This document shows, one piece after another, positions 1-11,201 of a stretch of 11,201 nt of DNA. Origin of the DNA: Candidatus Poribacteria bacterium (lineage in GTDB: Bacteria; Abyssobacteria; SURF-5); NCBI GenBank assembly GCA_016215705.1, contig JACRIR010000029.1:1-11201 (forward strand), given 5' to 3'. The translations under genes were made by a program, and so were the position numbers. A model generated the notes under the pieces. The model saw only the letters and a program-made list of their open reading frames with translations, did not search any database and was not told the DNA's origin. Position 1 is the first letter of the stretch. Every line of letters starts with the position of its first letter.

Positions 1-140
1 AGCCGGTTGTCATTCTGAGCGAGCCGGTTGTCATTCTGAGCGAAGCCGGTTGTCATTCTGAGTGAGCCGGTTGTCATTCTGAGCGAAGCGAAGAATCTCT
101 GTCTACGCGTCGCTCCGTCGTTTCGCTCCTCAGAATGACA
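1..140. repeat. Tandemly expanded TCATTCTGAGCGAAGC repeat with inverted partner
   Basis: A 21-22 base unit beginning AGCCGGTTGTCATTCTGAG occurs four times in tandem (starts near 1, 22, 44 and 65). Only the last copy continues into the longer form ending AAGAATCTCT (to 100). A reverse-complement copy of the core, CTCAGAATGACA, lies at 129-140, so 65-140 can fold into a long hairpin. The core TCATTCTGAGCGAAGCGAAG is a repeat I recognise from many bacterial genomes. The tandem expansion of only its left half is local to this site. Confidence 0.85.
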
Positions 141-182
141 ATCCTGACAGCACTGCGAAGCGCAATTTCATTCGGACAATAG
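129..182. repeat. Left copy of a long inverted repeat (partner 845-898)
   Basis: The stretch starting CCTCAGAATGACAATCCTGA and running on through CGCAATTTCATTCGG is found again as its reverse complement at 845-898, with only a few mismatches. The shared segment of about 54 bases extends well beyond the TCATTCTGAG core, so the two copies share a common larger element. Confidence 0.8.
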
Positions 183-693
183 GCCGTGTAGCTGCAATTT
201 CATTCGCAGCTACAGTAACGCGCTGCTCGACTCTACGCTACGCAGATAACAACACGAATACGACCCGAATGCTCGTTTTTCCCCTGCGCCAGAAAATGGC
301 TCTCTAGCACGACCATTCTCTAATTCAGCACCACAATACTCAGCCAACCAAATCCTCTTCTGACTATTAACGAGCAACAATTGAAAGCTCGATTTTTTCT
401 TGCTGGGAGCAGCGTTTTTCAGGAAGACCTTTGCCACTTTTGCGGGGACGCAGCATGCTGCGCCCTTATTGACAAGTACTTTGCCCTCCCGGTCATTATG
501 CCGGAGAGCACGGTCTTATGAAGAAAGCGTCTTCATTCTACCGCAAAACGTTCATCCCGCGTTTGTTCAAATTTGTCTGAATTTGCTTATAATATACCCT
601 AAGACCGGAAATTTGTCAATTTCTGGGGGAACAGAGAAGTGTGGCACAAGAGGTGATCGTGGAGTGAGGTCTTCTTATGCAGTGAGTTTTTCT
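183..693. other. Gene-free stretch
   Basis: I find no gene here that I can support. Two open frames exist (minus 210-437 and plus 400-822), but neither has a good ribosome binding site or recognisable motifs. A palindrome around GACGCAGCATGCTGCG lies at 446-462. Near 588-593 there is a TATAAT box with weak upstream -35 candidates, followed by the small dyad GAAATT-TGTC-AATTTC (608-623). No downstream gene explains this promoter-like site. Confidence 0.5.
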
Positions 694-723
694 TGTGGGG
701 GCACGGCGCGCCGTGCCCCCACA
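694..723. repeat. 30-bp perfect palindrome
   Basis: The half-site TGTGGGGGCACGGCG is followed immediately by its exact reverse complement, giving a 30-base palindrome with no loop and GGCGCGCC at its centre. The GGGGCACGGCGCGCCGTGCC core resembles a dispersed palindrome I recognise from other environmental genomes. It lacks a T-run, so it is not a standard intrinsic terminator. Confidence 0.85.
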
Positions 724-751
724 GAGACAAATGTGTTCGAAACGGCCGTTC

Positions 752-1141
752 TTGTAGGACGCAGCATGCTCAGCCGCTTGGGTCTAAGCAACCGCGCAGG
801 CGCTCAAAGCCGCTATTTGTAGGGGGTCTGGACTTGACGGCGTGTTGACCGAATGAAATTGCGCCTCATAGTGCTGTCAGGATTGTCATTCTGAGGAGCG
901 AAGCGACGAAGAATCTCTCGTTTTCCTGCAAATTTGCGACCTATAGACAGAGATTCTTCGCTCGGGCCTGCGGCCCTTCGCTCAGAATGACAAACGGCTA
1001 TTGCCATTTGGGCAACACGCCGTTGAGCTTGTAGGTACAGACGGATGCCTCCGAAGGAGCGTCCCGCCTCGGCGGGACTGCGCCCCTGCGAGAACCGACG
1101 AAGCAAAGTTGACAGAGCACTGGCGTGCTGCGTCCATACAA
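752..1141. repeat. Composite element bounded by inverted TTGTAGGACGCAGCATGC ends
   Basis: The left end TTGTAGGACGCAGCATGC (752-769) reappears as an inverted copy at 1123-1141, with one inserted base and one substitution. Between them lie the right copy of the 54-base inverted repeat (845-898) and a complete TCATTCTGAG element (883-993). No transposase frame is visible inside. The arrangement looks like a non-autonomous element or one repeat inserted into another. Confidence 0.55.
883..993. repeat. TTGTCATTCTGAG palindromic element
   Basis: TTGTCATTCTGAG at 883-895 is matched by CTCAGAATGACAA at 981-993. Inside, GAAGAATCTCT (908-918) is matched by AGAGATTCTTC (949-959). The whole 111 bases can therefore fold as one interrupted hairpin. 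Related copies lie at 65-140 and 5801-5829. Confidence 0.8.
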
Positions 1142-1258
1142 ATGGAAGAGTAGACGCCGAAGAACCGCTCATTAGCAAGAAAGCGATTATTTGCTTATTA
1201 TTGTGTAAGGTCAAGCAGCCAACCCGGCAGCACGAGACTATGTTCGAGACGATGGCCC

Positions 1259-1299
1259 TTACTCGTGGACACGATGTGATATGGTGTCCCCGAATAAAC
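1259..1299. repeat. Degenerate REP palindrome (GGGGACACxATG family)
   Basis: The right arm ATGGTGTCCCCGAATAAA is preserved, and the left arm is a decayed match reading CGTGGACACGATG. It belongs to the same family as the copies at 1903-1945 and 3086-3126. Its position shows that the in-frame extension upstream of the adenosyltransferase start is repeat, not coding sequence. Confidence 0.7.
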
Positions 1300-1320
1300 A
1301 GATGTTTCTCAAGAGTGAAA

Positions 1321-1326
1321 GAAGGA
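1321..1326 (+). promoter_or_regulatory. Ribosome binding site setting the adenosyltransferase start
   Basis: GAAGGA lies 9 bases before the GTG at 1336. This spacing, together with the onset of family similarity at MKITTKKGDTG, decides the start in favour of 1336 over the upstream ATG codons. Confidence 0.65.
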
Positions 1327-1335
1327 ATTCCCATA

Positions 1336-1893
1336 GTGAAGATAACCACCAAAAAGGGAGACACCGGGCGAACCAGCTTGCTCGACAAGCGGAAGCGCGT
1401 GTCGAAAACCGATGTCAGAAAAGAGATTAACGGAACGCTCGATGAAGTTAATTCGGTCCTTGGCCTTGCGCGCGCAACGTGCGACATCGAGCGAATCAAT
1501 AGGTTAATTCTCAGAGTGCAGGAAGAGATTTTCATGATTGGCTCGGAGGTAGCTGCCTCACCCGATAATATCGAAAAAGTGGAACGGCGGGTCGAGGCGC
1601 GACATGTGAGACGACTCGAAAAAGGCATGGACAGTATCGAGAAGCGGATGCCGATGCCGGAGAACTTCGTCGTAGCGGGAGCGACGCAGGTTTCGGCCAT
1701 GCTTGATATGGCGCGAACGTTTACACGCAGGGCCGAGCGTAAGGCGGTTGAAGGAAGAGAAGGGGAGAAAATCAGGAGCCCTCAGCTTATGAAATACCTG
1801 AACCGGCTCTCGGACTATCTTTTTACGCTTGCGAGATATTATGAGTTTCTGAAAATGGGAAAGGCCGAATGGCCCGCGCCGAGGAAGTGGTAA
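1336..1893 (+). CDS. pduO: PduO-type cob(I)alamin adenosyltransferase
   Basis: This enzyme transfers the adenosyl group of ATP to cob(I)alamin to make adenosylcobalamin, the coenzyme of B12-dependent mutases and dehydratases. From the GTG at 1336 it is 185 residues, the usual size for the family. The N-terminal ATP-binding motif TKKGDTGRTSLL is at 5-16. DEVNSVLGLAR is at 36-46. The signature ARTFTRRAER is at 126-135 and YLNRLSDYLFTLAR at 154-167. Many relatives have PGG and LHxAR before the arginine signature; here the sequence reads VAGAT and LDMAR, so it is a divergent but apparently complete member. The frame stays open upstream to 1045, but that part includes a REP repeat and has no family similarity. 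The gene is on the PDH strand, 104 bases before pdhA, with a REP palindrome between; a functional link to PDH is not obvious. Confidence 0.9.
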   Translation: MKITTKKGDTGRTSLLDKRKRVSKTDVRKEINGTLDEVNSVLGLARATCDIERINRLILRVQEEIFMIGSEVAASPDNIEKVERRVEARHVRRLEKGMDSIEKRMPMPENFVVAGATQVSAMLDMARTFTRRAERKAVEGREGEKIRSPQLMKYLNRLSDYLFTLARYYEFLKMGKAEWPAPRKW

Positions 1894-1902
1894 ACAGTGT
1901 GC

Positions 1903-1945
1903 GCTTATTCGGGGACACGATGCGGCATCGTGTCCCCGAATAAGC
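1903..1945. repeat. Perfect REP palindrome between adenosyltransferase and pdhA
   Basis: Two perfectly complementary 21-base arms (1903-1923 and 1925-1945), with core ATTCGGGGACACGATG, are separated by one base. A decayed extra copy of the right arm, GCATCGCGTCGCCGAATGAG, follows at 1954-1973. It lies 9 bases after the adenosyltransferase stop, where REP hairpins often stabilise the upstream message or reduce read-through. No T-run follows, so it is not a classic terminator. Confidence 0.88.
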
Positions 1946-1997
1946 TCCGTGTCGCATCGCGTCGCCGAATGAGCGCGCGCAATCATGGAGAAAACAT

Positions 1998-3125
1998 ATG
2001 CCGAACATCTTTGACGAATATCATCCGCTGACAGGAAAGATCTTCCGAATCCTGGATGAGAATGGGGTGCTTCATGAAGAACACGCCCCCAAATTTTCCC
2101 TCGAGGAATTAAGAGGTTTCTATCGTTGGATCATATTCTCGCGTGTCGCTGACCAGAAAGCGCTTAACCTTCAGCGGCAAGGCCGCATGGGCACGTACGC
2201 GCCGGTGCTGGGTCAAGAAGGGATACAAATAGGGGCTGCAAGCGCAATGCAGCCGCAAGACTGGCTGTTCCCGAGCTACCGCGAGCTTGCGGCAAGCATG
2301 ATTCGCGGCTTGCCGCTGGCGAATATATATCTTTACTGGATGGGCAATGAAGAAGGCAGCCGGATTCCCGAGGGGGTAAACATCTTCCCGATTTCCGTGC
2401 CTGTGGGAACACATCCGCTGCATGCGGTGGGCGCAGCGTGGGCATCAAAGCTAAGGCGAGAGAAAATCGTAGTGGTCTGTTTCTTTGGCGACGGCGCCAC
2501 GTCGGAAGGCGATTTTCATGAAGCCCTTAATTTCGCGGGTGTCTTTAAGACCCCCAATGTCTTCATTTGCCAGAACAACCAATATGCAATATCGGTCCCG
2601 TTTTCGCGGCAAAGCAGTTCGCCGACGATTGCTCAAAAGGCAATCGCGTATGGGTTTGACGGCATCCGTGTGGACGGCAACGACATTTTTGCCTCGTACG
2701 TCGCGTCGAAGGCGGCTATTGACAAAGCCCGCTCGGGCGGCGGGCCGACGTTCATCGAGGCCGTGACTTTCAGGCTTGGAGCGCACACAACAGCGGACGA
2801 TCCGCGCCGCTACCGGACCGACGCCGAAGTCGAGGAATGGCGTAAGCGCGAGCCACTCGTCCGCTTCGAGAAATACTTGAGGGAAAAGCGTATCATCGAT
2901 GACGGTTTTGCCGCACAGGTGAAAAGCGAAGCGGAAAGAGCTGTCGAGGAGACGGTGACGCAAGTCGAGGCGGTTCCATCGCACACCCCGAACGATGTTT
3001 TCGCGTATATGTTCAGCGAGATGCCTCAAAATCTGAAGGAGCAACTTGCGCTCTTGAACGAATCGCTCTCCGTTAAGAGGGAGATCCTATTCGGCGACAC
3101 CATGCGACATGGTGTCCCCGAATAG
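1998..3125 (+). CDS. pdhA: Pyruvate dehydrogenase E1 component, alpha subunit
   Basis: The alpha subunit of the thiamine-diphosphate-dependent E1 decarboxylates pyruvate and passes the acetyl group to the lipoyl arm of E2. The protein has 375 residues; the ATG lies 7 bases after GGAG (1987-1990). The thiamine diphosphate motif begins at GDG 164-166 and closes at QNN 192-194. The loop GAHTTADDPRRYR at 261-273 matches the acetyl-transferring, Bacillus-like PDH type better than acetoin dehydrogenase, though a branched-chain oxoacid enzyme cannot be excluded from sequence alone. The C-terminal motif MPQNLKEQL (342-350) lies near where relatives end. The last 12 residues, including FGDTMRHGVPE, and the stop codon are encoded by a REP palindrome and have no counterpart in the family. 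pdhB follows after 58 bases, so the two subunits are very likely co-transcribed. Confidence 0.95.
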   Translation: MPNIFDEYHPLTGKIFRILDENGVLHEEHAPKFSLEELRGFYRWIIFSRVADQKALNLQRQGRMGTYAPVLGQEGIQIGAASAMQPQDWLFPSYRELAASMIRGLPLANIYLYWMGNEEGSRIPEGVNIFPISVPVGTHPLHAVGAAWASKLRREKIVVVCFFGDGATSEGDFHEALNFAGVFKTPNVFICQNNQYAISVPFSRQSSSPTIAQKAIAYGFDGIRVDGNDIFASYVASKAAIDKARSGGGPTFIEAVTFRLGAHTTADDPRRYRTDAEVEEWRKREPLVRFEKYLREKRIIDDGFAAQVKSEAERAVEETVTQVEAVPSHTPNDVFAYMFSEMPQNLKEQLALLNESLSVKREILFGDTMRHGVPE

Positions 3126-3126
3126 G
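3086..3126. repeat. REP palindrome overlapping the 3' end of pdhA
   Basis: Arms of 19 bases (3086-3104 and 3108-3126), with one mismatch, are separated by CGA. This is the same family as 1903-1945. Because it lies in frame at the end of pdhA, it is translated and provides the TAG stop at 3123-3125. Confidence 0.88.
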
Positions 3127-3170
3127 CAGCCATTTGCGCCGAACAGGATTTTGATTATTTGCCATGAGGA

Positions 3171-3176
3171 AGGGGG
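3171..3176 (+). promoter_or_regulatory. Ribosome binding site setting the pdhB start
   Basis: AGGGGG lies 7 bases before the GTG at 3184 and is part of a longer purine run from 3167. The frame is open further upstream, but that part begins inside the REP palindrome. The GTG at 3184 gives the family's usual N-terminus. Confidence 0.7.
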
Positions 3177-3183
3177 AAGAATA

Positions 3184-4161
3184 GTGGCCGAACTGAATTT
3201 GGTCGAGGCCGTAAATGCGGCCATGCGTGAAGAAATGGAGCGCGACTCGCGCGTGATGATTCTGGGCGAAGACGTTGGGCGCGCCGGCGGAGTTTTCAGG
3301 GCGACTGAAGGTTTGCAAAAGCTATTCGGCGAAGATCGCGTCGTCGACACGCCGCTTTCGGAATCGGGAATCGTGGGTACGGCAATCGGGCTGGCGGCTT
3401 TCGGCATGAGGCCCATCGCGGAAATTCAGTTCATGGGCTTCATCTATCCCGCATTCGACCAGATCATCTCGCATGCAGGCCGCATGCGCAACCGGACCCG
3501 CGGCCGGTTCTCCGTCCCCCTTGTAGTGCGCACACCGTATGGCGGCGGCATTCATGCGCCCGAACACCATTCGGAGAGCACCGAAGCCATCTTTGCGCAC
3601 ACGCCGGGCATCAAGGTCGTCATCCCGTCAAATCCGTACGACGCGAAGGGTCTGCTGATAGCGGCCATTCGCGATCCCGACCCTGTCATATTTCTTGAGC
3701 CTGCGCGAATATACCGCTCGATCAAAGGAGAGGTTCCGGAGGGCGACTACACTGTCCCCATCGGGAAAGCAACTGTCGCGCGCGAAGGCGAAAGCGTGAC
3801 GCTGATCGCGTGGGGCGCAATGCTGCACGTCGCTCTTGAAGCAATCGAGGCGCTCACCGATGAAGGAATCGATGTCGAGTTGATAGACTTGAGGACGATT
3901 TCTCCGCTTGATAGTGATACAATTATCGAGTCGGTCAAGAAGACGGGCAGAGTCGTCGTTGTGCATGAGGCCCCGAAGACCTGCGGCCTCGGCGCAGAAA
4001 TAATTGCCCTCATTAATGAGAAAGCGTTTTTGAACCTGTCGGCGCCTCCTGGCCGCGTGACCGGCTTCGATACCATCATTCCGCTCCCCAAAGGCGAGCA
4101 TCTTTACTTGCCGACGCCGGAGCGAATCATCTCAGCCGTCAGGCAAGTAATGGAATATTAG
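3184..4161 (+). CDS. pdhB: Pyruvate dehydrogenase E1 component, beta subunit
   Basis: The beta subunit completes the E1 heterotetramer and contributes to the thiamine diphosphate site. From the GTG at 3184 it has 325 residues, the standard length. The start MAELNLVEAVNAAM leads into LGEDVGRAGGVFRATEGL, the conserved N-terminal motif. DTPLSESGIVGTAIGLAAFG, EIQFMGF and GIKVVIPSNPYDAKGLL follow in the expected order. The C-terminal transketolase domain includes LIDLRTISPLDSDTI. No frameshift or missing motif is visible. The gene is followed by a 344-base spacer rich in hairpins and repeats before pdhC, so pdhA-pdhB may be expressed at a different level from pdhC. Confidence 0.95.
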   Translation: MAELNLVEAVNAAMREEMERDSRVMILGEDVGRAGGVFRATEGLQKLFGEDRVVDTPLSESGIVGTAIGLAAFGMRPIAEIQFMGFIYPAFDQIISHAGRMRNRTRGRFSVPLVVRTPYGGGIHAPEHHSESTEAIFAHTPGIKVVIPSNPYDAKGLLIAAIRDPDPVIFLEPARIYRSIKGEVPEGDYTVPIGKATVAREGESVTLIAWGAMLHVALEAIEALTDEGIDVELIDLRTISPLDSDTIIESVKKTGRVVVVHEAPKTCGLGAEIIALINEKAFLNLSAPPGRVTGFDTIIPLPKGEHLYLPTPERIISAVRQVMEY

Positions 4162-4173
4162 GAAAGAAGTGCG

Positions 4174-4221
4174 AAGTGCCCCCCTCTTTCCCCCTCTGTT
4201 AAAAGGGGTGAAAGGGCACTT
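4174..4221. repeat. Long imperfect hairpin after pdhB
   Basis: AAGTGCCC (4174-4181) pairs with GGGCACTT (4214-4221). Inside, CTTTC and a C-run pair with GGGG and GAAAG. The apical loop contains TCTGTTAAAA. It begins 12 bases after the pdhB stop. No T-run follows, so it may be an attenuator or RNA-stabilising structure, or just a C-rich repeat of the CCCCCTTT family. Confidence 0.6.
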
Positions 4222-4227
4222 GAAATT

Positions 4228-4246
4228 CCCCCTTTGGCAAAGGGGG
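4228..4246. repeat. CCCCCTTT/AAAGGGGG palindrome
   Basis: CCCCCTTT (4228-4235) and AAAGGGGG (4239-4246) form a perfect 8-bp stem around GGC. It directly follows the larger hairpin. This palindrome resembles a dispersed CCCCCTTT...AAAGGGGG repeat seen in many genomes. Confidence 0.75.
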
Positions 4247-4270
4247 ATGAAGGGAGATTTGAAAAAAGTC

Positions 4271-4316
4271 CATCGGCGGTTCCTTTTGTTGTTTGTCTTA
4301 TTCGTTCCATTCGTAG
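4271..4316 (+). repeat. Compound repeat A-linker-B, short copy
   Basis: One unit of family A (ATCGGCGGTTCC) is followed by the linker TTTTGTTGTTTGTCTT and two 9-nt units of family B (ATTCGTTCC, ATTCGTAGC). The same order, with a nearly identical linker, recurs at 4370-4469, so the two are copies of one compound element. Confidence 0.75.
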
Positions 4317-4369
4317 CTTTGTTGAACTCTTGAAAGGATTACTGTTACAAAGACATGAGAGATGTGGTC

Positions 4370-4469
4370 ATCGGCGTTTATCGGCGTTCATCGGCGGTTC
4401 CCTTTATTGTTTGCTTTATTCGTGCTATTCGTTCCGCGCGCTTCGCGCGATTCGTGACATTCGTGATCC
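4370..4469 (+). repeat. Compound repeat A-linker-B, long copy with hairpin
   Basis: Three 10-nt family A units (4370-4399; ATCGGCGTTT, ATCGGCGTTC, ATCGGCGGTT) lead through a linker to family B units of 9 nt: 4418-4426, 4427-4435, 4450-4458 and 4459-4467. The hairpin GCGCGCTTCGCGCG (4436-4449) is inserted between the second and third B units. The element fills most of the spacer before pdhC. Confidence 0.8.
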
Positions 4470-4492
4470 AAGATTCTCTTCTTTTTCTTCTG

Positions 4493-4498
4493 AAAGGA
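4493..4498 (+). promoter_or_regulatory. Ribosome binding site of pdhC
   Basis: AAAGGA lies 7 bases before the ATG at 4506. An in-frame GTG at 4500 is too close to this site, so 4506 is preferred. Confidence 0.65.
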
Positions 4499-4505
4499 TG
4501 TGCTC

Positions 4506-5687
4506 ATGGCGCTTGAATTCAAGTTCCCCGACGTCGGCGAAGGAATCACTGAAGGTGAAATCGTGCTATGGCTTGTCGAAGAAGGCGAAAACGTGAAGCA
4601 GGATCAGCCGCTCGTACAAGTCGAGACCGATAAGGCGCTCGTCGAGATTCCTTCCCCTCGGCCGGGCGTGGTTCTCAAAATCATGTTCCACGAGGGCGAC
4701 ATCATCAAGGTCGGCGAAACACTCGTTGTCATAGGCGACGAAGGTGAAAAGCTCGAGGAGAAGGAAGAGAAAAAGGAATACGTCGGGATTGTTGGACACA
4801 TCGAGGAAACACCAGCGCCCAAAACGCGTCCGCGTCCTCAGGCGCTGGCTGTGCCCGCTGTTCGCAAGCTTGCAAAAGACCTCGGAGTGGACATCGCGAC
4901 GGTCAAGGGAACAGGCGACGGCGGGCGGATTACCGAAGAAGATGTCAGACGTCACGCCGAGCAGACTCAAGTGAAGGCGGTTGCGGATACATACGGCGAA
5001 GTCGAACGGATTCCATTGAGGAGCGTGCGCCGAAGTATTTCCCAAAAAATGGTGCGCTCGAAGTTCTCAATCCCGCATGTGACACATATGGACCTCGCGA
5101 ACGCGTCCGCCCTTGTGCGTCGCAAAACCGAACAGACTGAGCAGGCGCGCCGCAGGAATATCCACCTCACTTATCTGCCATATATAATGAAAGCCGTGGC
5201 GCTAAGCCTGAAGAAATTCCCCTATCTCAACTCCTCGCTCGATACCGAGAAGAACGAGATCATCCTTAAGAAATACGTCAACATCGGATTTGCCGTCGAG
5301 ACCGACGATGGGTTGCTCGTGCCGGTCGTAAAGAATGTGGACAAGAAGAATGTCTTCCAGTTGGCGGAAGAAACCCGGCGGCTGGCCGATTTGTGCCGCG
5401 CGCGAAAAGTGGACCTTGCTGACTTGAAAGGCGGCACATTCAGTATCACGAATATCGGCAGTCTCGGCGGAATCTATTCCACACCAATTATCAATCATCC
5501 CGAGGCTGCCAACCTCGGCCTCGGCAAGATTCGGCAGATGCCGTGGGTGATCGACGGCGAAATCGGCATCATTCACGGAGTGTATCTCTCGCTTTCGTTC
5601 GACCACCGTATCCTCGACGGCGCCGTCGCCGCCCGCTTCACGAACGAAGTCATCAACTACATCGAGCACCCGGAGACGATAACATAA
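4506..5687 (+). CDS. pdhC: Dihydrolipoamide acetyltransferase, E2 of pyruvate dehydrogenase
   Basis: E2 is the core of the complex. Its swinging lipoyl arm takes the acetyl group from E1 and transfers it to CoA. The protein has 393 residues. A single N-terminal lipoyl domain occupies about 1-80, with the lipoylated lysine K43 in VETDKALVEI. A charged and proline-containing linker follows to about 112. The peripheral subunit-binding domain is at about 114-150 (AVPAVRKLAKDLGVDIATVK, then GRITEEDV). The catalytic domain runs from about 165 to the end, with SFDHRILDGA holding the active-site His367 and Asp371. The lipoyl domain requires LplA or LipA/LipB activity from elsewhere. No E3 gene follows; the next gene is an unrelated hydrolase. 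Branched-chain or acetoin-type E2 cannot be fully excluded, but the E1 subunits favour pyruvate. Confidence 0.94.
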   Translation: MALEFKFPDVGEGITEGEIVLWLVEEGENVKQDQPLVQVETDKALVEIPSPRPGVVLKIMFHEGDIIKVGETLVVIGDEGEKLEEKEEKKEYVGIVGHIEETPAPKTRPRPQALAVPAVRKLAKDLGVDIATVKGTGDGGRITEEDVRRHAEQTQVKAVADTYGEVERIPLRSVRRSISQKMVRSKFSIPHVTHMDLANASALVRRKTEQTEQARRRNIHLTYLPYIMKAVALSLKKFPYLNSSLDTEKNEIILKKYVNIGFAVETDDGLLVPVVKNVDKKNVFQLAEETRRLADLCRARKVDLADLKGGTFSITNIGSLGGIYSTPIINHPEAANLGLGKIRQMPWVIDGEIGIIHGVYLSLSFDHRILDGAVAARFTNEVINYIEHPETIT

Positions 5688-5700
5688 ATAAGAAGCTTTT

Positions 5701-5752
5701 GGAACACGAATGCACACGAATCCGCGAAGCGCGGAAGGAATGGCGCGAATAA
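5701..5752 (-). repeat. Family B repeat with internal hairpin, reverse orientation
   Basis: Read on the minus strand this holds ATTCGCGCC, ATTCCTTCC, a GCGCTTCGCGG hairpin, then ATTCGTGTGC and ATTCGTGTTCC. The hairpin sits at the same place between B units as in 4418-4467, so the hairpin-bearing form is a distinct subtype. Confidence 0.75.
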
Positions 5753-5767
5753 GACGGTTTAACCACA

Positions 5768-5792
5768 ATAAACGCCGATGGACGCCGATTTC
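5768..5792 (-). repeat. Family A repeat, reverse orientation
   Basis: AATAAACGCCGATGGACGCC is the reverse complement of the 10-nt family A iteration (GGCGTCCATCGGCGTTTATT). It lies in the pdhC-hydrolase spacer next to the family B copy, again pairing A with B. Confidence 0.7.
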
Positions 5793-5800
5793 TTCTACAC

Positions 5801-5829
5801 GTCATTCTGAGCGAAGCGAAGAATCTCTC
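5801..5829 (+). repeat. TCATTCTGAGCGAAGC half element
   Basis: A copy of the left half only, GTCATTCTGAGCGAAGCGAA followed by GAATCTCT. No inverted partner is nearby. It matches 72-100. Confidence 0.8.
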
Positions 5830-5911
5830 TATACGCTGATTCAGAAAGAGCATGAGTTTCCACCACTAACAAGCTGACCACGCTCGAAACCCTTCTGTAT
5901 TACATCCCTGC

Positions 5912-5966
5912 AACCGCAAACTTTAAGCCGTAAACTGTGAACCTGCCTTCTTAGAACCGTGAACCC
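5912..5966. repeat. 7-nt iterated repeat (AACCGTG family H)
   Basis: Five consecutive 7-nt units (AACCGCA, AACTTTA, AGCCGTA, AACTGTG, AACCTGC) occupy 5912-5946. Another, AACCGTG, is at 5955-5961. Family H also appears as GTTTATG units at 7237-7271. It lies upstream of the hydrolase gene; no clear promoter could be chosen there. Confidence 0.65.
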
Positions 5967-6020
5967 AATTTCTTACAGTCCGGCGTATTTGCGTGACATA
6001 CTTGATAAGAATCAAAGTGA

Positions 6021-6026
6021 AGGAGG
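6021..6026 (+). promoter_or_regulatory. Strong ribosome binding site of the hydrolase gene
   Basis: AGGAGG lies 8 bases before the ATG at 6035. It excludes the in-frame upstream starts near 5993. Confidence 0.75.
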
Positions 6027-6034
6027 AACAAGTC

Positions 6035-6679
6035 ATGGTTAACCATAGAATTCGCGGTTTGCTGACACCGGAGAACTCTGCATTTCTTTTCATCGACCAC
6101 CAGCCGCAGATGTTCTTCGGGGTGCAGTCAATAGACAGACAATTGCTTATCAACAACGTAGTCGGCCTCGCCAAAGCGGCGAGAATCTTCAAGGCGCCTG
6201 TCGTCCTGACCACGATCGCGGCCGAGAGCTTCAGCGGTCCGATCCTTCCGCAGCTTCAAGAGGTTTTCCCCGGCCAAAGGCCAATCGACCGCAGCAACAT
6301 GAACGCATGGGAGGATGATGCTTTTGTTGCCGAGGTGAAAAAGACCGGTCGCAGGAAACTCATTGTGGCGGGTCTCTGGACGGAAGTCTGCGTCGCGTTC
6401 CCTGCCATTTCGGCGCTCGAGGCCGGTTATGAAGTCTACGTGGTCGCCGATGCGTGCGGAGACGTGAACCAAATGACTCATGATATGTCGATGCAGCGCG
6501 TGATACAGGCAGGGGCGGTTCCCGTCACATGGCTGCAAGTGCTTCTTGAATTTCAGCGCGACTGGGCTCGACAGGAAACATACGACGCCGTTCTCGATGT
6601 CGTGAAGGAACACGGAGGCGCTTACGGACAAGGCATTGTGTACGCGCACAGCATGCTAGGCGTTCATGCAGGCGGCTGA
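6035..6679 (+). CDS. YcaC-like cysteine hydrolase (isochorismatase superfamily)
   Basis: The protein has 214 residues and the fold signature of the isochorismatase-like cysteine hydrolases, closest in pattern to E. coli YcaC. The nucleophile is Cys119 in LWTEVCVAFPAISALEAGY. The catalytic aspartate is Asp21 in FLFIDHQPQM. The basic third member is probably Arg86 in PIDRSNMNAWEDD. The stretch VIQAGAVPVTWLQVLLEFQR (156-175) also follows the YcaC pattern. YcaC-group enzymes are soluble, form multimers, and have no agreed physiological substrate, so I assign only hydrolase chemistry. It has its own strong ribosome binding site and is separated from pdhC by a repeat-filled spacer of about 350 bases, so it is probably an independent unit. 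Confidence 0.9.
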   Translation: MVNHRIRGLLTPENSAFLFIDHQPQMFFGVQSIDRQLLINNVVGLAKAARIFKAPVVLTTIAAESFSGPILPQLQEVFPGQRPIDRSNMNAWEDDAFVAEVKKTGRRKLIVAGLWTEVCVAFPAISALEAGYEVYVVADACGDVNQMTHDMSMQRVIQAGAVPVTWLQVLLEFQRDWARQETYDAVLDVVKEHGGAYGQGIVYAHSMLGVHAGG

Positions 6680-6707
6680 CCGCACAATAAAAAAGCGATT
6701 CTTGATG

Positions 6708-6730
6708 ACCACGGAGAGCACGGAGAAGGA
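6708..6730 (-). repeat. Family D 9-nt iterated repeat, reverse orientation
   Basis: ACCACGGAG and AGCACGGAG are adjacent 9-nt units. On the minus strand they read CTCCGTGCT, CTCCGTGGT, the same family as 10389-10420. Confidence 0.75.
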
Positions 6731-6761
6731 GGGGAAAGTCTATTCCTGATTCTCTATTTGC

Positions 6762-6779
6762 GCCCTTTGTGCCTTGGGC
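6762..6779 (+). repeat. Family G 9-nt repeat
   Basis: GCCCTTTGT and GCCTTGGGC are two 9-nt units. A related copy (GCTCTTTGT, CCCTCGGGT) lies at 10841-10858. In both places a family D repeat lies within about 60 bases upstream. Confidence 0.6.
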
Positions 6780-6890
6780 GTGTGGCTCTTCTGGAATATC
6801 GTGACCGGTGGCGAAACATTTCCGACCATGGCGGTTCAGGATGATCTGTTTCTCCTCATAGTTGATCTGGCGGCTGACTGTGCTGGCCAT
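6780..6890 (-). pseudogene. Possible truncated gene remnant with Cys/His motif
   Basis: A minus-strand frame starting with ATG at 6890 reads MASTVSRQINYEEKQIIL, then RHGRKCFATGHDIPEEP, and then runs into the family G repeat at about 6780. After that point the sequence is repeat-derived. The spacing of arginines, Cys and Gly-His looks like the beginning of a zinc-binding or HNH-type domain, but the matching second half is absent. The ribosome binding site is weak. I treat it as a gene end cut off by repeat DNA; the family assignment is a guess. Confidence 0.3.
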
Positions 6891-7085
6891 GTGTCTCTTC
6901 TTTCTTTGTTGGCACGACTATGGCTCATCTTGTGTGGTTTAATTATTGCACCTTTCATTCCGTGAAATTGTGGTACGACATCCCGCAGTGCATCAAAATC
7001 CAAAATCCGGCTTTCCAATACGACAATCCGCCTTTCTCACCTCATCCATCGTCCCTCATTCATCCAAGAATGCCACACACAGACA

Positions 7086-7106
7086 CCTTGGACCTTTAAC
7101 CTTGGA
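7086..7106 (+). repeat. Family K 7-nt iterated repeat
   Basis: Three contiguous 7-nt units: CCTTGGA, CCTTTAA, CCTTGGA. This is the same iteration length as families C, H, I and J but a different core. Confidence 0.65.
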
Positions 7107-7236
7107 CAAATAATCACAATCTCGTGTTGGAAGAATACCATATACAGCCCAATCCGGTCAATTTTGTTTCAAAGAAATGACTGGTTCCGCCGCTCACTCT
7201 TCAAGGATCCGCGATGCGATTCACGAATAGAAGCGA

Positions 7237-7271
7237 GTTCATAGTTTCGGGTTTATGGTTTATGGTTGAGA
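7237..7271 (+). repeat. Family H 7-nt iterated repeat
   Basis: Five contiguous 7-nt units: GTTCATA, GTTTCGG, GTTTATG, GTTTATG and GTTGAGA. ACCACGAACCAAAAACC, which reads as the reverse of the same motif, follows at 7271-7287. Confidence 0.7.
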
Positions 7272-7296
7272 ACCACGAACCAAAAACCGATTCTAA

Positions 7297-7339
7297 GACG
7301 GGGAACATCCCCCGAAATATGGGAATGCCCTCCCACGTC
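7297..7339. repeat. Imperfect REP-like palindrome
   Basis: GACGGGGAACATCCC (7297-7311) pairs imperfectly with GGGAATGCCCTCCCACGTC (7321-7339). The GGGGAACAT...ATGCCC layout resembles REP palindromes but differs in sequence from the GGGGACACxATG family upstream. Confidence 0.5.
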
Positions 7340-7420
7340 CGTCTCTGCGAGGGAACGGGAAAGATTTTTCTTGACTTTGGTTTCCGGTTCTTAGAGATGA
7401 TCTCTGAGCTTTTGTTTTAT

Positions 7421-7636
7421 CTACTTCCGAGCTTTCATGGTTCTGAACAACAAACCGACCCATGTAAGTAAGAGCGTCAAAAGCCCGAAGCAGAATAGGG
7501 ACCTATTCCCGAGAGAATACGCCATGGCGGCAAATAGCATGATCCCAACAATTGACAAGAAAACGCCGACGCCAACTGCGACAGTCAACTCTCTCTTTTG
7601 GTGATGTTCTTCTCTTGACTCTTTATCAGCGTTCAT
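7421..7636 (-). CDS. Small two-helix membrane protein of unknown function
   Basis: Up to 71 residues with a charged N-terminus (MNADKESREEHHQKREL). Two hydrophobic segments follow at about 18-42 and 46-65, joined by GNR, and the protein ends in MKARK. The positive end suggests both termini are cytoplasmic. I recognise no family. The ATG and the first codons (MNADK) lie inside a family A repeat and have no ribosome binding site, so the real start may be internal, for example the TTG at 7588, giving about 55 residues. It lies 25 bases downstream of the antitoxin gene on the same strand and could be the last gene of that unit. Confidence 0.5.
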   Translation of the reverse strand: MNADKESREEHHQKRELTVAVGVGVFLSIVGIMLFAAMAYSLGNRSLFCFGLLTLLLTWVGLLFRTMKARK

Positions 7637-7657
7637 CGGCGTCCATCTGCGGTTCCA
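7627..7657 (+). repeat. Family A 10-nt iterated repeat
   Basis: ATCAGCGTTC, ATCGGCGTCC and ATCTGCGGTT follow one another at 10-nt spacing between the antitoxin and the small membrane protein gene. The repeat contains the annotated-looking ATG of the latter on the minus strand. Confidence 0.75.
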
Positions 7658-7661
7658 ATAG

Positions 7662-8782
7662 CTAACGGCCCCGCTTGATTTCCAGCTTACTCCTCAGGCC
7701 GTTGAGATGAGATTCCCTGAGCAGACCCTCATAATGGAGTCGACCGACAACGATACTTGGGGCAATCCCAACTGCGCGCGCGAATTCGATAACGTTCGCC
7801 TTGGTGAATGGCGGGCACGAAACAAATCCGCGGAATTCTCGCGGGGGGATGAGTGTGTCCGCCGCGAATTTGTCTGCTTCCAACTCTTCCGGGTTCATCG
7901 CCATCCCGTCTCTTTCCGCTTCAACAAATGCCTCTCTCTTGCCGTGGAGTAATATGTGTCCTATTCCATGAAAGAAGCTAAACCAGAAAGTGTCATCGTA
8001 CTTATGGCGAACGCTCAGTTGTATAAGAGCCTTGCCGGGCGACAGCCATCTCGTTGAGCTATGGGCATACATCCTCGGAAGAGACGGCACAAACACGAGC
8101 GCGACCCCCCGCTCGGCGCAAAGAGCGATCAACTTCTGCAAGAATTTCGGAGGAACCTCGCGCGTCAACTCGCGAAATAAATTCAAGCTCGCCTTCAGCC
8201 TCTTCTCGTCATAAGGGACTGTCCGGATTCTATGGGCTTCGATTTCCCCTTTTCGCAGCCACGCGGCCAAAGCCATTCGAGACGGCTCTTCTGCCAAGGT
8301 CCTCCCATATGCCGACTCGCGCTCACGGACCAAGCCGGAACCGGAATCTTGCGAGGGGAACGCATCGGCTAGTGACGATACGGAAAAAAATAGGATAAGT
8401 TCGCGAACCTGCTCGGTCTTTTTCTTGACGTTTCGCACCCAACCGAGTCTTGCCATTTCCGCATATGGAATATCTTTCAGCAGGAAGATCTGCTCCTGCA
8501 ATTCCCTCGCTTCCTGGAGACGGGCCTTGGTAAGTTGATAATCGTTTTCCAGATTCAACCACACATGGGCCGGAGTCCCGAGGACGTGCTCGAGCTGAAT
8601 AGCCGTGTCCGGAGTGATACTCTTCACTCCTTTGATTATCTCGTTTATGACTTGAACCGGCCGGCCCATGCGCCTCGCAAGCTCCGCTGCGTCATTCCCT
8701 TCGCCTCGATGGTCTCCTCAAGAGTCTCACCCGGCGGAATCGCAATATCCGGCAGGAGCATAGCTTCTTTTTTAGTTTTCAT
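7662..8782 (-). pseudogene. HigA-type antitoxin fused to ImmA/IrrE peptidase domain, frameshifted
   Basis: The reconstructed protein is about 373 residues. The first part begins at ATG 8782 and reads MLLPDIAIPPGETLEETIE, the usual start of HigA-type helix-turn-helix antitoxins, up to KGMTQ. One base is missing near 8687. The frame then resumes as AELARRMGRPVQVINEIIKG, which completes the helix-turn-helix and continues for 335 codons from ATG 8669. The C-terminal half is an ImmA/IrrE metallopeptidase-like domain. Its HExxH motif reads HGIGH (residues 234-238 of the 335-codon frame), losing the catalytic glutamate, while EELEADKFAADTLIPP with the third zinc ligand is kept. Such fusions bind operator DNA and their partner toxin. 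The start overlaps the toxin stop by 11 bases, implying translational coupling. A sequencing error at 8687 is possible. Confidence 0.75.
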
Positions 8783-9061
8783 AGTGCTTGCTCACTTCCT
8801 CGATGAGCGCCGTATTCTCATCCCTTAGTGTGAAAATCAGTCTCATGCCCTTCGAGAGTTTGACAACATGCTGTCCTTTACGGTCACCTTTGAGAAGATG
8901 GTAGTCAAGTTCCGGATATGTCCCAAGCTCATCGGCATGGCGGACTGAATATTGATCCGCCGAACATACTTGTGCGCCGCATCTGATCCCCATTTCTTGA
9001 CCGCCTTCTTGTGTTCAAGATAACATCTCTCCAGCGCCTTGCTTCTGAATACTATTATCAC
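8772..9061 (-). pseudogene. HigB/RelE-like toxin, frameshifted
   Basis: The reconstructed protein is about 96 residues. It begins VIIVFRSKALERCYLEHKKA (GTG at 9061) and continues through KKWGSDAAHKYVRRINI. The frame then shifts by one missing base between about 8939 and 8953. It resumes as HADELGTYPELDYHLLKGDR and ends RLIFTLRDENTALIEEV, SKHYEN. The order, including GDRKGQ, RLIF and the C-terminal His-Tyr, fits HigB-type ribosome-dependent mRNA interferases, as does the toxin-before-antitoxin gene order. Separately, the downstream frame could start at ATG 8993 but would lack the proper N-terminal helices. Either the toxin is dead or the assembly has an error here. Confidence 0.75.
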
Positions 9062-9082
9062 AAATGGCCGCCTTTTTGTCAA
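9054..9082 (-). promoter_or_regulatory. Consensus-like promoter overlapping the toxin start
   Basis: On the minus strand TTGACA (9077-9082) is followed after exactly 17 bases by GATAAT (9054-9059). This is close to the sigma-70 consensus. It sits over the only good start codon (9061), so a transcript from it would lack that start. A second candidate -10, TACAAT, just upstream would leave room for a leader with AAGG. Confidence 0.4.
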
Positions 9083-9204
9083 ATTGTATTCAATGAAGGG
9101 GTGAATGAATATATCCACCTGAGCCGAAGCCCCGCTTAACTTCCTCCCTTCACATTTCTCTCCTCCCCCTTCGAGACCCCCGCTCTCCTGCAAAGTCTCT
9201 CAAT

Positions 9205-9232
9205 CTCTGCGTCCCTCCGCGCCCCCCTGCGG
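9205..9232 (+). repeat. Family D 9-nt iterated repeat
   Basis: CTCTGCGTC, CCTCCGCGC and CCCCCTGCGG, three drifting units at 9-nt spacing. A family B array follows 17 bases later. Confidence 0.65.
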
Positions 9233-9249
9233 TTTGCTCAAGAGTTTGT

Positions 9250-9358
9250 ATTCGTGAGATTCGTTCCATTCGTGACATCCGTGATCCCGCTTCTTCTTTT
9301 CTTCCGTTCGTCTCTTCCGTTCGTCACGTTCGTAATTCATTCGTAATTCGTGTTCCAA
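9250..9358 (+). repeat. Family B 9-nt iterated array
   Basis: Four perfect-spacing units (ATTCGTGAG, ATTCGTTCC, ATTCGTGAC, ATCCGTGAT) occupy 9250-9285. A CT tract and looser TTCGT units follow to ATTCGTGTTCC near 9356. It is the longest family B site in the window. Confidence 0.75.
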
Positions 9359-9388
9359 AGACTTTCTCTTCTCCTTTTCTTCTTCTTA

Positions 9389-9418
9389 ATCCACGTGTAT
9401 CCGCGTGCATCTGCACGG
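9389..9418 (+). repeat. Family A 10-nt iterated repeat
   Basis: ATCCACGTGT, ATCCGCGTGC, ATCTGCACGG at exact 10-nt spacing. Confidence 0.75.
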
Positions 9419-9480
9419 CTGAGTCCCGCATTCCGTGGGGTCCAGCGCTTCGCAGGACTCCCTTGTTTCCATTTCTTTTC

Positions 9481-9506
9481 AATCCAAAATCCAAAATCCG
9501 CAATCG
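9481..9506 (+). repeat. Family C 7-nt iterated repeat
   Basis: AATCCAA, AATCCAA, AATCCGC and AATCGC follow one another at 7-nt spacing. Related copies are at 6997, 9691, 9781 and 10302. Confidence 0.75.
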
Positions 9507-9559
9507 CTTGTCCCCTTTTCCCCTGCGAAGCCCCTTCCCCTTTCGCCATGCTTGTCAGC

Positions 9560-9620
9560 GTCCGTCCTTGTCCACTGCGTCCATACCGTCCATGCAGTCC
9601 ATTACGTCCATGCAGTCCGC
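9560..9620 (+). repeat. Family E 9-nt array (GTCCATGCA)
   Basis: Five contiguous 9-nt units start at 9570 (GTCCACTGC, GTCCATACC, GTCCATGCA, GTCCATTAC, GTCCATGCA). A partial sixth (GTCCGC) and a looser unit at 9560 flank them. It is the most regular array in the region. Confidence 0.8.
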
Positions 9621-9690
9621 TTATCCGGAAATCACACCGAGCTATGCCTTCAAAAGTTCCTCGCGGGATTCCCTCTTCTTCTTCTCTTCC

Positions 9691-9704
9691 AATTCAAAAT
9701 CCAA
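9691..9704 (+). repeat. Family C 7-nt repeat, short copy
   Basis: AATTCAA and AATCCAA, followed by TTTCCCC. Confidence 0.5.
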
Positions 9705-9724
9705 TTTCCCCCCCCAGAGTCTTC

Positions 9725-9754
9725 ATCCGCGTTCATCGGCGGTTATCGGCGTTC
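9725..9754 (+). repeat. Family A 10-nt iterated repeat
   Basis: ATCCGCGTTC, ATCGGCGGTT and ATCGGCGTTC at exact 10-nt spacing. Here the GGCGGTT variant is second rather than last. Confidence 0.75.
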
Positions 9755-9895
9755 CCTGCAGTCTCTTCTTCTGCGATTCCAATCCAAAACATGCCCTCGA
9801 CTTTGATCGGGAATCTTCAATCGCTTGACCGCTGACCCTTCTCTTTCCCGATTGCCTTTCACATCTTGAGCTTTTCTTCCTTTTCTCTTCAACCA

Positions 9896-9916
9896 GAAAC
9901 TCGAAACGAGAAACTC
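9896..9916 (+). repeat. Family I 7-nt iterated repeat
   Basis: GAAACTC, GAAACGA, GAAACTC, three contiguous 7-nt units. Confidence 0.65.
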
Positions 9917-10023
9917 CGCCCTGCGCCGTTGCTTGACTTTGATTGAGTGAAAGTAGTATTTTGTAGCTGTCAGAGAGTGGTTCCATTCCTTTCGCAACGG
10001 CGCTTGCTAATATTCCGGTGACA

Positions 10024-10043
10024 TAATACCTATTGTAGTATTA
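10024..10043. promoter_or_regulatory. TAATAC/GTATTA dyad in an AT-rich patch
   Basis: TAATAC (10024-10029) and GTATTA (10038-10043) are exact inverted copies 8 bases apart, at the start of about 70 AT-rich bases (10020-10095) in otherwise C/T-rich DNA. It could be an operator or the site of a former promoter. No gene can be tied to it. Confidence 0.3.
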
Positions 10044-10196
10044 CAGAAACTATATTATATTAAAAGCATAAGGCAAATCTTTATTCTATAATCTGCCCAT
10101 CCGTGACCGCCCAAGCAATAAGAATGCCCTCGACCCTTGATAGCCACAGCGTGACACAGCCGCAAAACCCCTTCCTGCCTCAATCCTTCTTAGTGA

Positions 10197-10269
10197 CCTT
10201 GGCGACCTTCGTGGTGAATTCTCCCCTTTCGCCTCTTTTATCTGAATTCATCTCTGTTCATCTGTGGTT
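10197..10269 (+). repeat. Adjacent family D and family A repeats
   Basis: Family D units CCTTGGCGA and CCTTCGTGG (10197-10214) are followed by family A units ATCTGAATTC, ATCTCTGTTC, ATCTGTGGTT (10240-10269), the latter at 10-nt spacing. Confidence 0.7.
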
Positions 10270-10301
10270 AGTGAGCTGTTTCTTGTCCTTGTTTCTTGTT
10301 C

Positions 10302-10330
10302 AATCCAAAACCCGCAATCCAAAATCTTAT
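10302..10330 (+). repeat. Family C 7-nt iterated repeat
   Basis: AATCCAA, AACCCGC, AATCCAA and AATCTTA, contiguous at 7-nt spacing. Confidence 0.7.
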
Positions 10331-10349
10331 GCCCCTTTCGCCTTCACCT

Positions 10350-10379
10350 ATCCGCGTTTATCGGCGTTCATCGGCGGCT
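10350..10379 (+). repeat. Family A 10-nt iterated repeat
   Basis: ATCCGCGTTT, ATCGGCGTTC, ATCGGCGGCT, nearly identical to 4370-4399. Confidence 0.8.
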
Positions 10380-10388
10380 CCCTTCAAT

Positions 10389-10420
10389 CTCCGTGTTCTC
10401 CGCACCCTCCGTGGTGAAGG
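10389..10420 (+). repeat. Family D 9-nt iterated repeat
   Basis: CTCCGTGTT, CTCCGCACC and CTCCGTGGT, then GAAGG. It follows the preceding family A copy by 9 bases. Confidence 0.75.
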
Positions 10421-10446
10421 CTTTCTTGTTGGTTTGAAACTTCTTC

Positions 10447-10476
10447 ATCCGCGTACATCGACGCGTATCGGCGGCC
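10447..10476 (+). repeat. Family A 10-nt iterated repeat, diverged
   Basis: ATCCGCGTAC, ATCGACGCGT, ATCGGCGGCC at exact 10-nt spacing. Confidence 0.7.
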
Positions 10477-10519
10477 AGTATTCACCTCTTCTTCTCACCC
10501 CTGAATTGATATTTGTTTC

Positions 10520-10550
10520 ATTCGCAACCCATTCGTGCGATTCGTGTTCC
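10520..10550 (+). repeat. Family B 9-nt iterated repeat
   Basis: ATTCGCAAC, two extra bases, then ATTCGTGCG and ATTCGTGTTCC. Confidence 0.7.
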
Positions 10551-10582
10551 AAAGTTGGCCCTTTTTATTAACAAAAAGTTCG

Positions 10583-10627
10583 TTGACCGACATCCCCGCT
10601 ACCCGTACACTATAGGCTAGATGTCGG
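10583..10627 (+). promoter_or_regulatory. Promoter-like site with flanking dyad
   Basis: TTGACC (10583-10588) lies 17 bases before TACACT (10606-10611). CCGACATC (10587-10594) overlaps the -35 end, and its exact inverted copy GATGTCGG is at 10620-10627, where an operator would lie. AAAGGA and an ATG (10669) follow. The frame from that ATG is repeat-derived after about 38 codons, so the served gene is uncertain. Confidence 0.4.
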
Positions 10628-10784
10628 AGAAGAAAGCTTTTTGCCACGCTCATAAACGAAAGGAACATATGCTGACACAGAAAATGACCGGTGCAACGAC
10701 CCCCTTCAAATGCAATCCGACCGCAACACGGGCTGCTTCTCAGCATCGCCGAGTCACGTCTGCTCGTCGGCAAAAGGAGGAGTT

Positions 10785-10858
10785 CTCGGTGAACTCTGAG
10801 CCCTCGGTGGCCCAGGAGGATAGTCTTGCTTTTTCTTTGGGCTCTTTGTCCCTCGGGT
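10785..10858 (+). repeat. Family D then family G repeats
   Basis: CTCGGTGAA, CTCTGAGCC and CTCGGTGGC (10785-10811) are followed by GCTCTTTGT and CCCTCGGGT (10841-10858). D and G also occur near each other at 6708-6779. Confidence 0.65.
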
Positions 10859-10916
10859 CTCGAACCTCTTCGCGGTTCGCCTCTTCTTCTCCAACTCCAA
10901 ATGCCATTTGTCCCGC

Positions 10917-10945
10917 GTTTCGCGATTCGCGCCATTCGTGTTCCC
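10917..10945 (+). repeat. Family B 9-nt iterated repeat
   Basis: ATTCGCGCC and ATTCGTGTT (10925-10942), preceded by TTTCGCG and followed by CCC. Confidence 0.65.
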
Positions 10946-10999
10946 ACTCTCTCTTGGACCATTCCAGTCCAAAAATTTATGAAACAAAACACGTTTTCT

Positions 11000-11024
11000 C
11001 GCGTCACCGCGTCACCCGCGTCAC
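11000..11024 (+). repeat. Family F iterated repeat (CGCGTCAC)
   Basis: CGCGTCAC, CGCGTCAC and CCGCGTCAC. A second copy with 10-11 nt spacing lies at 11154-11183. Confidence 0.7.
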
Positions 11025-11105
11025 CAATCCCCACAAAGAGCGCCCAAAGTCGTTCACTCTTGGACTTCGAAACTTATTGCTGGTCAATTACTTGCGCATC
11101 CCCTT

Positions 11106-11125
11106 GCACCTTGCTCCTTGCTCCT
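11106..11125 (+). repeat. Family J 7-nt repeat (TTGCTCC)
   Basis: Two contiguous TTGCTCC units preceded by a diverged one (CACC) and followed by TTTCACC. Confidence 0.5.
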
Positions 11126-11153
11126 TTCACCTGCCCCGCCTTTATCGGGGCCT

Positions 11154-11183
11154 CGCGTCACCCACGCGTCACCTCGCGTCACC
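11154..11183 (+). repeat. Family F iterated repeat, second copy
   Basis: GCGTCAC occurs at 11155, 11166 and 11176, giving three units spaced 10-11 nt. It is preceded by the small hairpin CCCCGCCTTTATCGGGG (about 11134-11150). Confidence 0.7.
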
Positions 11184-11201
11184 GATTGTTGCGTTATTCA
11201 T

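Follow-up and report, generated by a model that had tools for sequence, protein, structure and literature searches.

Short-core tandem arrays of 7-nt and 9-10-nt pitch in intergenic spacers of a Candidatus Poribacteria contig and of other bacterial genomes

The spacers of an 11,201-nt stretch of Candidatus Poribacteria bacterium (contig JACRIR010000029.1, positions 1 to 11,201, hereafter the window) hold many short arrays in which a core motif recurs every 7 nt or every 9-10 nt, and raise the question of why so many different cores should follow one plan. The original prediction described about ten such families as unrelated, and suggested a common process such as the copying of a short template or binding arrays with helical spacing. 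In this study, the arrays in the window and in its parent genome proved to be a genuine, orderly and widespread class of spacer arrays. A lagged self-match test was compared with dinucleotide shuffles in 1.40 Mb of the parent genome, comprising 101 loci (100 contig stretches and the window) with 256 kb of intergenic DNA. Intergenic tandem matches numbered 144 at lag 7, 43 at lag 8, 48 at lag 9, 36 at lag 10 and 96 at lag 14, against about 12 in shuffles, a constant floor at all lags due to runs of N, and coding DNA showed mostly lags in multiples of 3 plus a small lag-7 count. In the intergenic DNA of the window (5.3 kb), lagged matches of at least 12/14 numbered 4 at lag 7, 1 at lag 9 and 2 at lag 10, with 0.00-0.01 in shuffles. 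Explicit detection in the genome sample recovered 353 arrays, including 156 of period 7, 60 of period 9, 42 of period 8 and 41 of period 10. Chance or base composition as the source of the arrays is excluded by this excess over shuffles. The excess at 7, 9 and 10 nt, whose absence had been named as refuting the idea, is present genome-wide, one plan common to many cores recurs far beyond chance and also in other phyla, and periods of 8 and 11 nt occur as well; a derivation of all families from one known element was tested and not borne out.

The families are not all unrelated, as had been supposed. Those of 9-10 nt (CACGAAT, CACGGATTAA, CGCNGATGAA, CACGGAG and CGCAAAG) are dialects of one consensus, C-R-C-N-R-A-K followed by 2-3 free nucleotides; their arrays often begin with AACC, and single arrays combining two dialects were found. 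The heptamers GGATTNN, AAGGNNN, GGTYYRY and GTCGAAR also consist of a core and free letters, but without one common consensus, and heptamer cores in other phyla are very diverse, including some that resemble the short tandemly repeated repetitive sequences (STRR) of cyanobacteria. The difference between core and spacer was observed most closely in Herpetosiphon genome G022, in 94 arrays among the matches listed, with a search pattern that allowed A or G at core positions 4 and 5. Fixation at these two positions was about 95-100%, in contrast to position 2 and both spacer letters, which varied; the spacers were purine-rich, and neighbours within an array were uncorrelated (kappa 0.01). In this one genome, 24 identical array pairs were counted against 17.4 (sd 4.4) under independent assortment. 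Units and spacers that assort in this way speak against simple slippage as well as the copying of a master array, since either would carry the spacers along. Across phyla, adjacent spacers were likewise uncorrelated (kappa -0.01 and -0.17, n=75) and the cores agreed, and the three non-core positions of AAGG heptamers lacked agreement from unit to unit (kappa -0.16 to -0.03, n=71). Repetition of the whole unit, with the spacer copied along with the core as in STRR, was thus not seen in the 9-nt class and AAGG heptamers, although some long arrays show it. Homogeneity of cores within an array, once considered a sign of template iteration, was withdrawn as such, the agreement across phyla being partly genome dialect rather than per-array copying.

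The arrays also obey an orientation rule. In the parent genome they point outward from the nearest gene edge (GGATTTT in 26 of 30, AAGGCGA in 42 of 51 and GCGCAAAG in 24 of 29 cases), and the rule recurs in small numbers in two relatives of the same family and in 25 of 27 GAAG arrays of Herpetosiphon. It is stronger at start than at stop edges, and is therefore not a transcription rule. Terminators or promoters, which would follow the direction of transcription, were rejected, as orientation tracks the nearest gene edge and arrays sit in divergent spacers too. Neighbouring arrays of different families lay on the same strand in 75 cases and on opposite strands in 20 (p 1e-8), while same-family neighbours on opposite strands faced each other (><) in 10 cases and faced apart (<>) in none. 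AACCRTR arrays often stand directly 5' of start codons. A partner in inverted orientation accompanies many 9-nt arrays and gives hairpins of 26-28 bp, and nested arrangements of such pairs were observed. Across phyla, a complementary arm lay within 300 nt downstream for 60 of 102 arms, upstream for 15, and for none in shuffles. Folding gave long stems, of about 26 bp or more, for three paired elements (z -8.2 to -9.2) but not for a stretch of the window with two unpaired arrays. A separate observation on paired arms comes from a Bacteroidales contig (L200:5258-5800), where recurrent paired CACAAAG/CACGAAG hairpins form a satellite in which left arms are homogeneous, right arms are homogeneous, and left and right are unlike each other.

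The layout extends far beyond the parent genome. A strict pattern, AACC followed by three CRCRRAG units, was found in at least 117 stretches of genome contigs, with a chance estimate of about 4 in that collection; the bacteria concerned include cyanobacteria, Chloroflexi, Acidobacteria, Planctomycetes, Verrucomicrobia, Proteobacteria, Bacteroidota, Gemmatimonadetes, Spirochaetes and others, and the archaea include Methanosarcinales. In a set of 290 whole genomes, with most families represented by one, AACC plus three exact CRCNRAK units occurred in 53 (about one fifth), with at least 10 arrays in 19 of them, and the reversed pattern, used as control, gave 1 match. Stricter arms numbered 220 and 258 in two Herpetosiphon genomes, the former being G021. 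When the matched regions were masked, the flanking spacers of the loci had 51 lag-7 stretches where shuffles gave 0.2; in Herpetosiphon spacers so masked, lag 7 counted 32 and lag 9 counted 24, with multiples raised and zero at 8 and 10-13. Since B-DNA has no helical repeat of 7 or 9 nt, these lags speak against the helical spacing suggested earlier. Putative virus contigs of IMG/VR carry arrays too, of which 132 of 157 are single rather than paired; among 33 sense arrays, 10 run over the stop codon of the preceding gene (distance -2), its TAA taking in the opening letters of AACC. The comparison of orthologous spacers for gain or loss of arrays, which the original prediction had proposed, was made at one locus in five Herpetosiphon species with flanking DNA 90-94% identical; there the outermost modules are kept, inner modules and unit number differ, and one species carries a tandem triplication of about 116 bp.

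The idea of a common process behind the like architecture stands. The reading that we prefer, with a probability of roughly 0.4, is that the arrays are spacer elements built as arrays of reader sites. Each unit would combine a fixed core, of 4-5 nt in 7-nt arrays and 7-8 nt in 9-10-nt arrays, with a free spacer of 2-3 nt, and conservation would concern core and pitch, not a unit copied as a whole. One strand would be contacted by a sequence-specific reader, one core per subunit, most likely in single-stranded RNA or DNA, since a pitch of 7 or 9 nt misfits the duplex DNA helix. Modules would be gained, lost and swapped in spacers by some process, with local stretching through slippage, and pairs in inverted orientation would give long hairpins. 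As reviewed in PMC4679880, CspB binds single-stranded heptamers with one protein per heptamer, and provides a precedent for such a reader. We prefer the reader-site account because it is the best predictor of fixed cores with free spacers; mobile hairpins and slippage each account for other parts, and may operate in combination.

Several points weigh against the reader-site account. The reader itself, its single-strand mode, the selection on cores and the insertion of modules we infer from the arrays, and strand-specific RNA pairing found no support, tandem spacers showing 6 G.U-type and 7 A.C-type differences in a small sample. The pattern searches preset part of the core, so that only the free core positions are informative. 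The contrast of core and spacer, clean for the 9-nt class and AAGG heptamers, is less so for other heptamers, with GGTTYAY and GTCGAAA showing correlation at some spacer positions, and some long arrays (L158, L159 and L170) have identical spacers, which indicates that slippage acts as well. The outward rule is weaker at stop edges and has exceptions such as long one-way runs, and the gene calls on which it depends come from a home-made, hexamer-based caller.

Polymerase slippage, which would make the arrays ordinary long simple sequence repeats whose units drifted by later mutation, is an unlikely alternative in our estimate, even though the over-representation of heptamers in bacteria has already been reported (PMC4692102, PMC4679880) and both papers cite an idea of Mrazek that 7 nt is favoured by the grip of DNA polymerase on its template. 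The tandem units of 5-11 nt in many intergenic copies that mark STRR and long simple sequence repeats are indeed found here, unit number varies between the orthologous Herpetosiphon arrays, long homogeneous arrays exist, and heptamer families are highly diverse in sequence. However, slippage copies core and spacer alike, yet adjacent spacers are uncorrelated and cores fixed, and it leaves unexplained why one core recurs at dozens to hundreds of loci, why different families share an orientation and why there are inverted pairs. The arrays could also have been written at DNA ends by a telomerase- or retron-like enzyme that copies a short template over and over, with free letters between rounds; this would leave both the fixed core with a free, purine-rich spacer and the outward polarity from both gene edges that were found. 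We nevertheless regard such writing as very improbable: RVT_1 is not enriched in array-rich genomes (8 of 19 versus 80 of 271 others, p 0.30), inner modules are swapped rather than merely added at one end, and we know of no template RNA for it. With the lack of this association reverse transcriptase was rejected as the engine, and the template copying of the original prediction, in its reverse-transcriptase form, fails on these counts and on spacers that are not carried from unit to unit.

Non-autonomous mobile hairpins, similar to repetitive extragenic palindromic (REP) elements or miniature inverted-repeat transposable elements (MITEs), are a possible but rather doubtful source, in which inverted pairs with ends AACC...GGTT would be inserted into spacers, perhaps with a preference for older hairpin loops that would produce nesting and outward polarity. 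The excess of complementary arms downstream, the stable stems and the nested pairs are in favour of this origin, as is the TAA stop supplied by the array to the preceding gene on IMG/VR contigs. Y1_Tnp was found in 18 of 19 array-rich genomes versus 151 of 271 others (p 5e-4), and a DDE transposase family was more weakly associated (p 0.06); the Y1_Tnp association may be an effect of genome size or habitat. On the other side, Herpetosiphon G021 with its 220 exact arms gave no Y1_Tnp match, so that Y1 is not required, and the Y1 transposase, although associated, was rejected as the engine. Identical copies did not clearly exceed independent assortment within one genome, no target-site duplication was noticed, many arrays are unpaired, including a 2 kb one-way run in the window, and MITE-like terminal inverted repeats are confined to paired arrays. 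REP elements and bacterial interspersed mosaic elements (BIMEs), with their REP-associated tyrosine transposases (RAYTs), are interspersed, intergenic and found as inverted pairs, all of which recalls the arrays; their likeness ends with arms that are tandem core arrays here and with a Y1 transposase that G021 lacks.

Parts of the 7-nt class have been met before. As the Calothrix report is cited in PMC4692102, the cyanobacterial STRR are dispersed, intergenic, drifting 7-nt units, and STRR-like units are among the loci found here, but the descriptions of STRR concern a few heptamers of one group, and STRR are not known to include a 9-10-nt class or to show core/spacer grammar, an orientation rule or pairing. 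The TAACTGA direct repeats of Beggiatoaceae, with 2-6 heptamer units at many intergenic sites, often directly 5' of start codons (PMC4679880), resemble the start-codon-adjacent AACCRTR arrays; they differ in having a single core, related heptamers being rare in that genome, and a translational role has been proposed for them. In Geobacter metallireducens, PMC2700814 describes classes 1-3 of putative global regulator binding sites with tandem 7-9-nt units and opposite-strand pairs at variable distance, and calls two of the classes evolutionarily related. TCTCCGTSY, the consensus of class 2, matches the CACGGAG dialect, and inverted pairs occur here too, yet many of our arrays have no partner, and the Geobacter sites were regarded as confined to that one genome, with IHF/HU-type binding proposed for them. 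Xanthomonas and Nostoc have GGGAATC and GGGGAYT repeats (PMC4692102) that are likewise intergenic heptamers in which a core is conserved and other positions vary, mostly in four units and with some inverted cases. They were explained as G-quadruplexes, whereas most cores here are not G-rich, and this explanation does not fit AATCCAA, CACGAAT, CGCAAAG and AAGGCGA, which lack runs of at least 3 G.

An account uniting the 7-nt and 9-10-nt arrays was not found in the literature, in a search that left subscription journals largely outside and is weak evidence of novelty, and searches on unit sequences gave, among the papers listed, only primers and eukaryote work. While the 7-nt part is known piecemeal, the common layout, the orientation rule and the wide spread look largely undescribed. 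We tentatively propose that both kinds of array form one widespread class with genome-specific dialects and a grammar of its own, in which core and pitch are fixed, spacers free, polarity outward and pairing inverted, and that a single-strand binding system would read them across bacteria and some archaea. An orientation-ruled layout with fast turnover in about one fifth of sampled genomes would represent either a neglected regulatory layer or neglected selfish spacer DNA. The core/spacer test tells selection or reading from slippage by sequence alone, and thus makes the cause of bacterial heptamer over-representation directly testable.

Within the window, the predicted families are present, though family I, family K and the AACCGTG half of H are weak (1-2 copies). 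Arrays of family B, of CACGAAT type, lie on the minus strand at 4298..4315 (2 units, ATTCGT at 4300/4309), 4416..4466 (9-nt pitch, broken by CGCGCGCTTCGCGCG; 4418/4427 and 4450/4459), 9250..9284 (about 4 units; 9250/9259/9268) and 10531..10552 (10531/10540), and a plus-strand CACGAAT array at 5703..5721 points outward from the upstream gene. Family A, with ATCGGCG-type units at period 10, occupies the minus strand at 4368..4396 (CGCCGATGAA-type, 3 units at 4370/4380/4390, the last merging into GGTTCC), 7625..7651 (CGCNGATGAA; 7625/7635/7645), 9722..9754 (CGCNGATGAA; 9725/9735/9745) and 10349..10376 (CGCCGATGAA; 10350/10360/10370). A further 10-nt array, AACGCCGATGGACGCCGAT, stands at 5771..5789 on the plus strand. 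Family C is represented by minus-strand GGATTTT heptamers at 6994..7008 (AATCC at 6997/7004) and 9481..9499 (three units at 9481/9488/9495, one with variant spacer GC). For family D, one clear unit pair stood up at 10389/10407, within minus-strand CACGGAG units at 10389..10417, together with 6710-6725 in the plus-strand 9-nt array ACCACGGAGAGCACGGAG (6708..6727) directly past an isochorismatase-domain gene. Family K has two good TCCAAGG copies at 7086..7107 (minus), and family I two exact GAAACTC copies at a distance of 14 nt (9895..9917). Family H forms a minus-strand GGTTYAY-type array at 5912..5966 (AACCGTG/AACTGTG on the plus strand), 5' of the isochorismatase-domain gene, seen by direct reading and a GGTT pair, and GGTTTAT-type arrays at 7250..7288 (GTTTATG at 7251/7258) as a small hairpin-like inverted pair, the only one in the window. 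AACCCTA, the plant telomere heptamer, appears inside family H arrays elsewhere in the sample (L078:291, L025:15691), probably by coincidence within a GGTTTAN-type array.

The one-way run spans about 2 kb (9205..11183) and comprises 13 or more arrays from about 8 families, every one on the minus strand, which is the outward strand, with pyrimidine-rich linkers between them. Besides those already given, it holds degenerate ACGAAT/ACGAAC arrays (9300..9352), a ATCCACGTGT/ATCCGCGTGC 10-nt array (9389..9411), the 9-nt family E array ATGGACNNN (9570..9618, about 5 units, GTCCAT at 9579/9588/9597/9606), a 9-nt array of CACGAAG/CGCCAAG/CACTAAG (10189..10213), a CRCGAAT-type pair (10925..10942), and the AAGGNNN heptamers of family J (11102..11132, TTGCTCC-type units at 11102/11109/11116). 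Two GGTGACGCG arrays lie at 11000..11025 (period 8-9) and 11151..11183 (period 10-11), with CGCGTCAC units at 11000/11008/11017 and 11154/11165/11175. No Rfam covariance model matched the window at gathering score.

The genes at 1240-6676 encode a cobalamin adenosyltransferase, 2-oxoacid dehydrogenase E1 alpha and beta, E2 and the isochorismatase-domain protein. Two minus-strand genes follow at 7662-8993, one with an IrrE/Peptidase_M78-like domain and a shorter one without a Pfam match, whose layout suggests a toxin-antitoxin-like pair. Other repeats share these spacers. A palindromic REP-like sequence, TCGGGGACACGATGC/GCATCGTGTCCCCGA, occurs at 1910-1938 and also at 1284-1292 and 3112-3120; it shows no orientation bias and has 61 copies in the spacers sampled from the genome. 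In spacers of G000 (e.g. L096 at about 4830-4910), spacer-enriched palindromes GTAGGGGC...GCCCCTAC carry varying cores (GCAATTCATTGC, GCGATGAATCGC, ACGGCGCGCCGT). A CATTCTGAGCGAAGCGAAGAATCTC repeat is present at 1-89, 887-989 and 5803-5830 of the window, where the left end carries four 21-nt copies in tandem, and is scattered across the genome, in some cases as inverted pairs.

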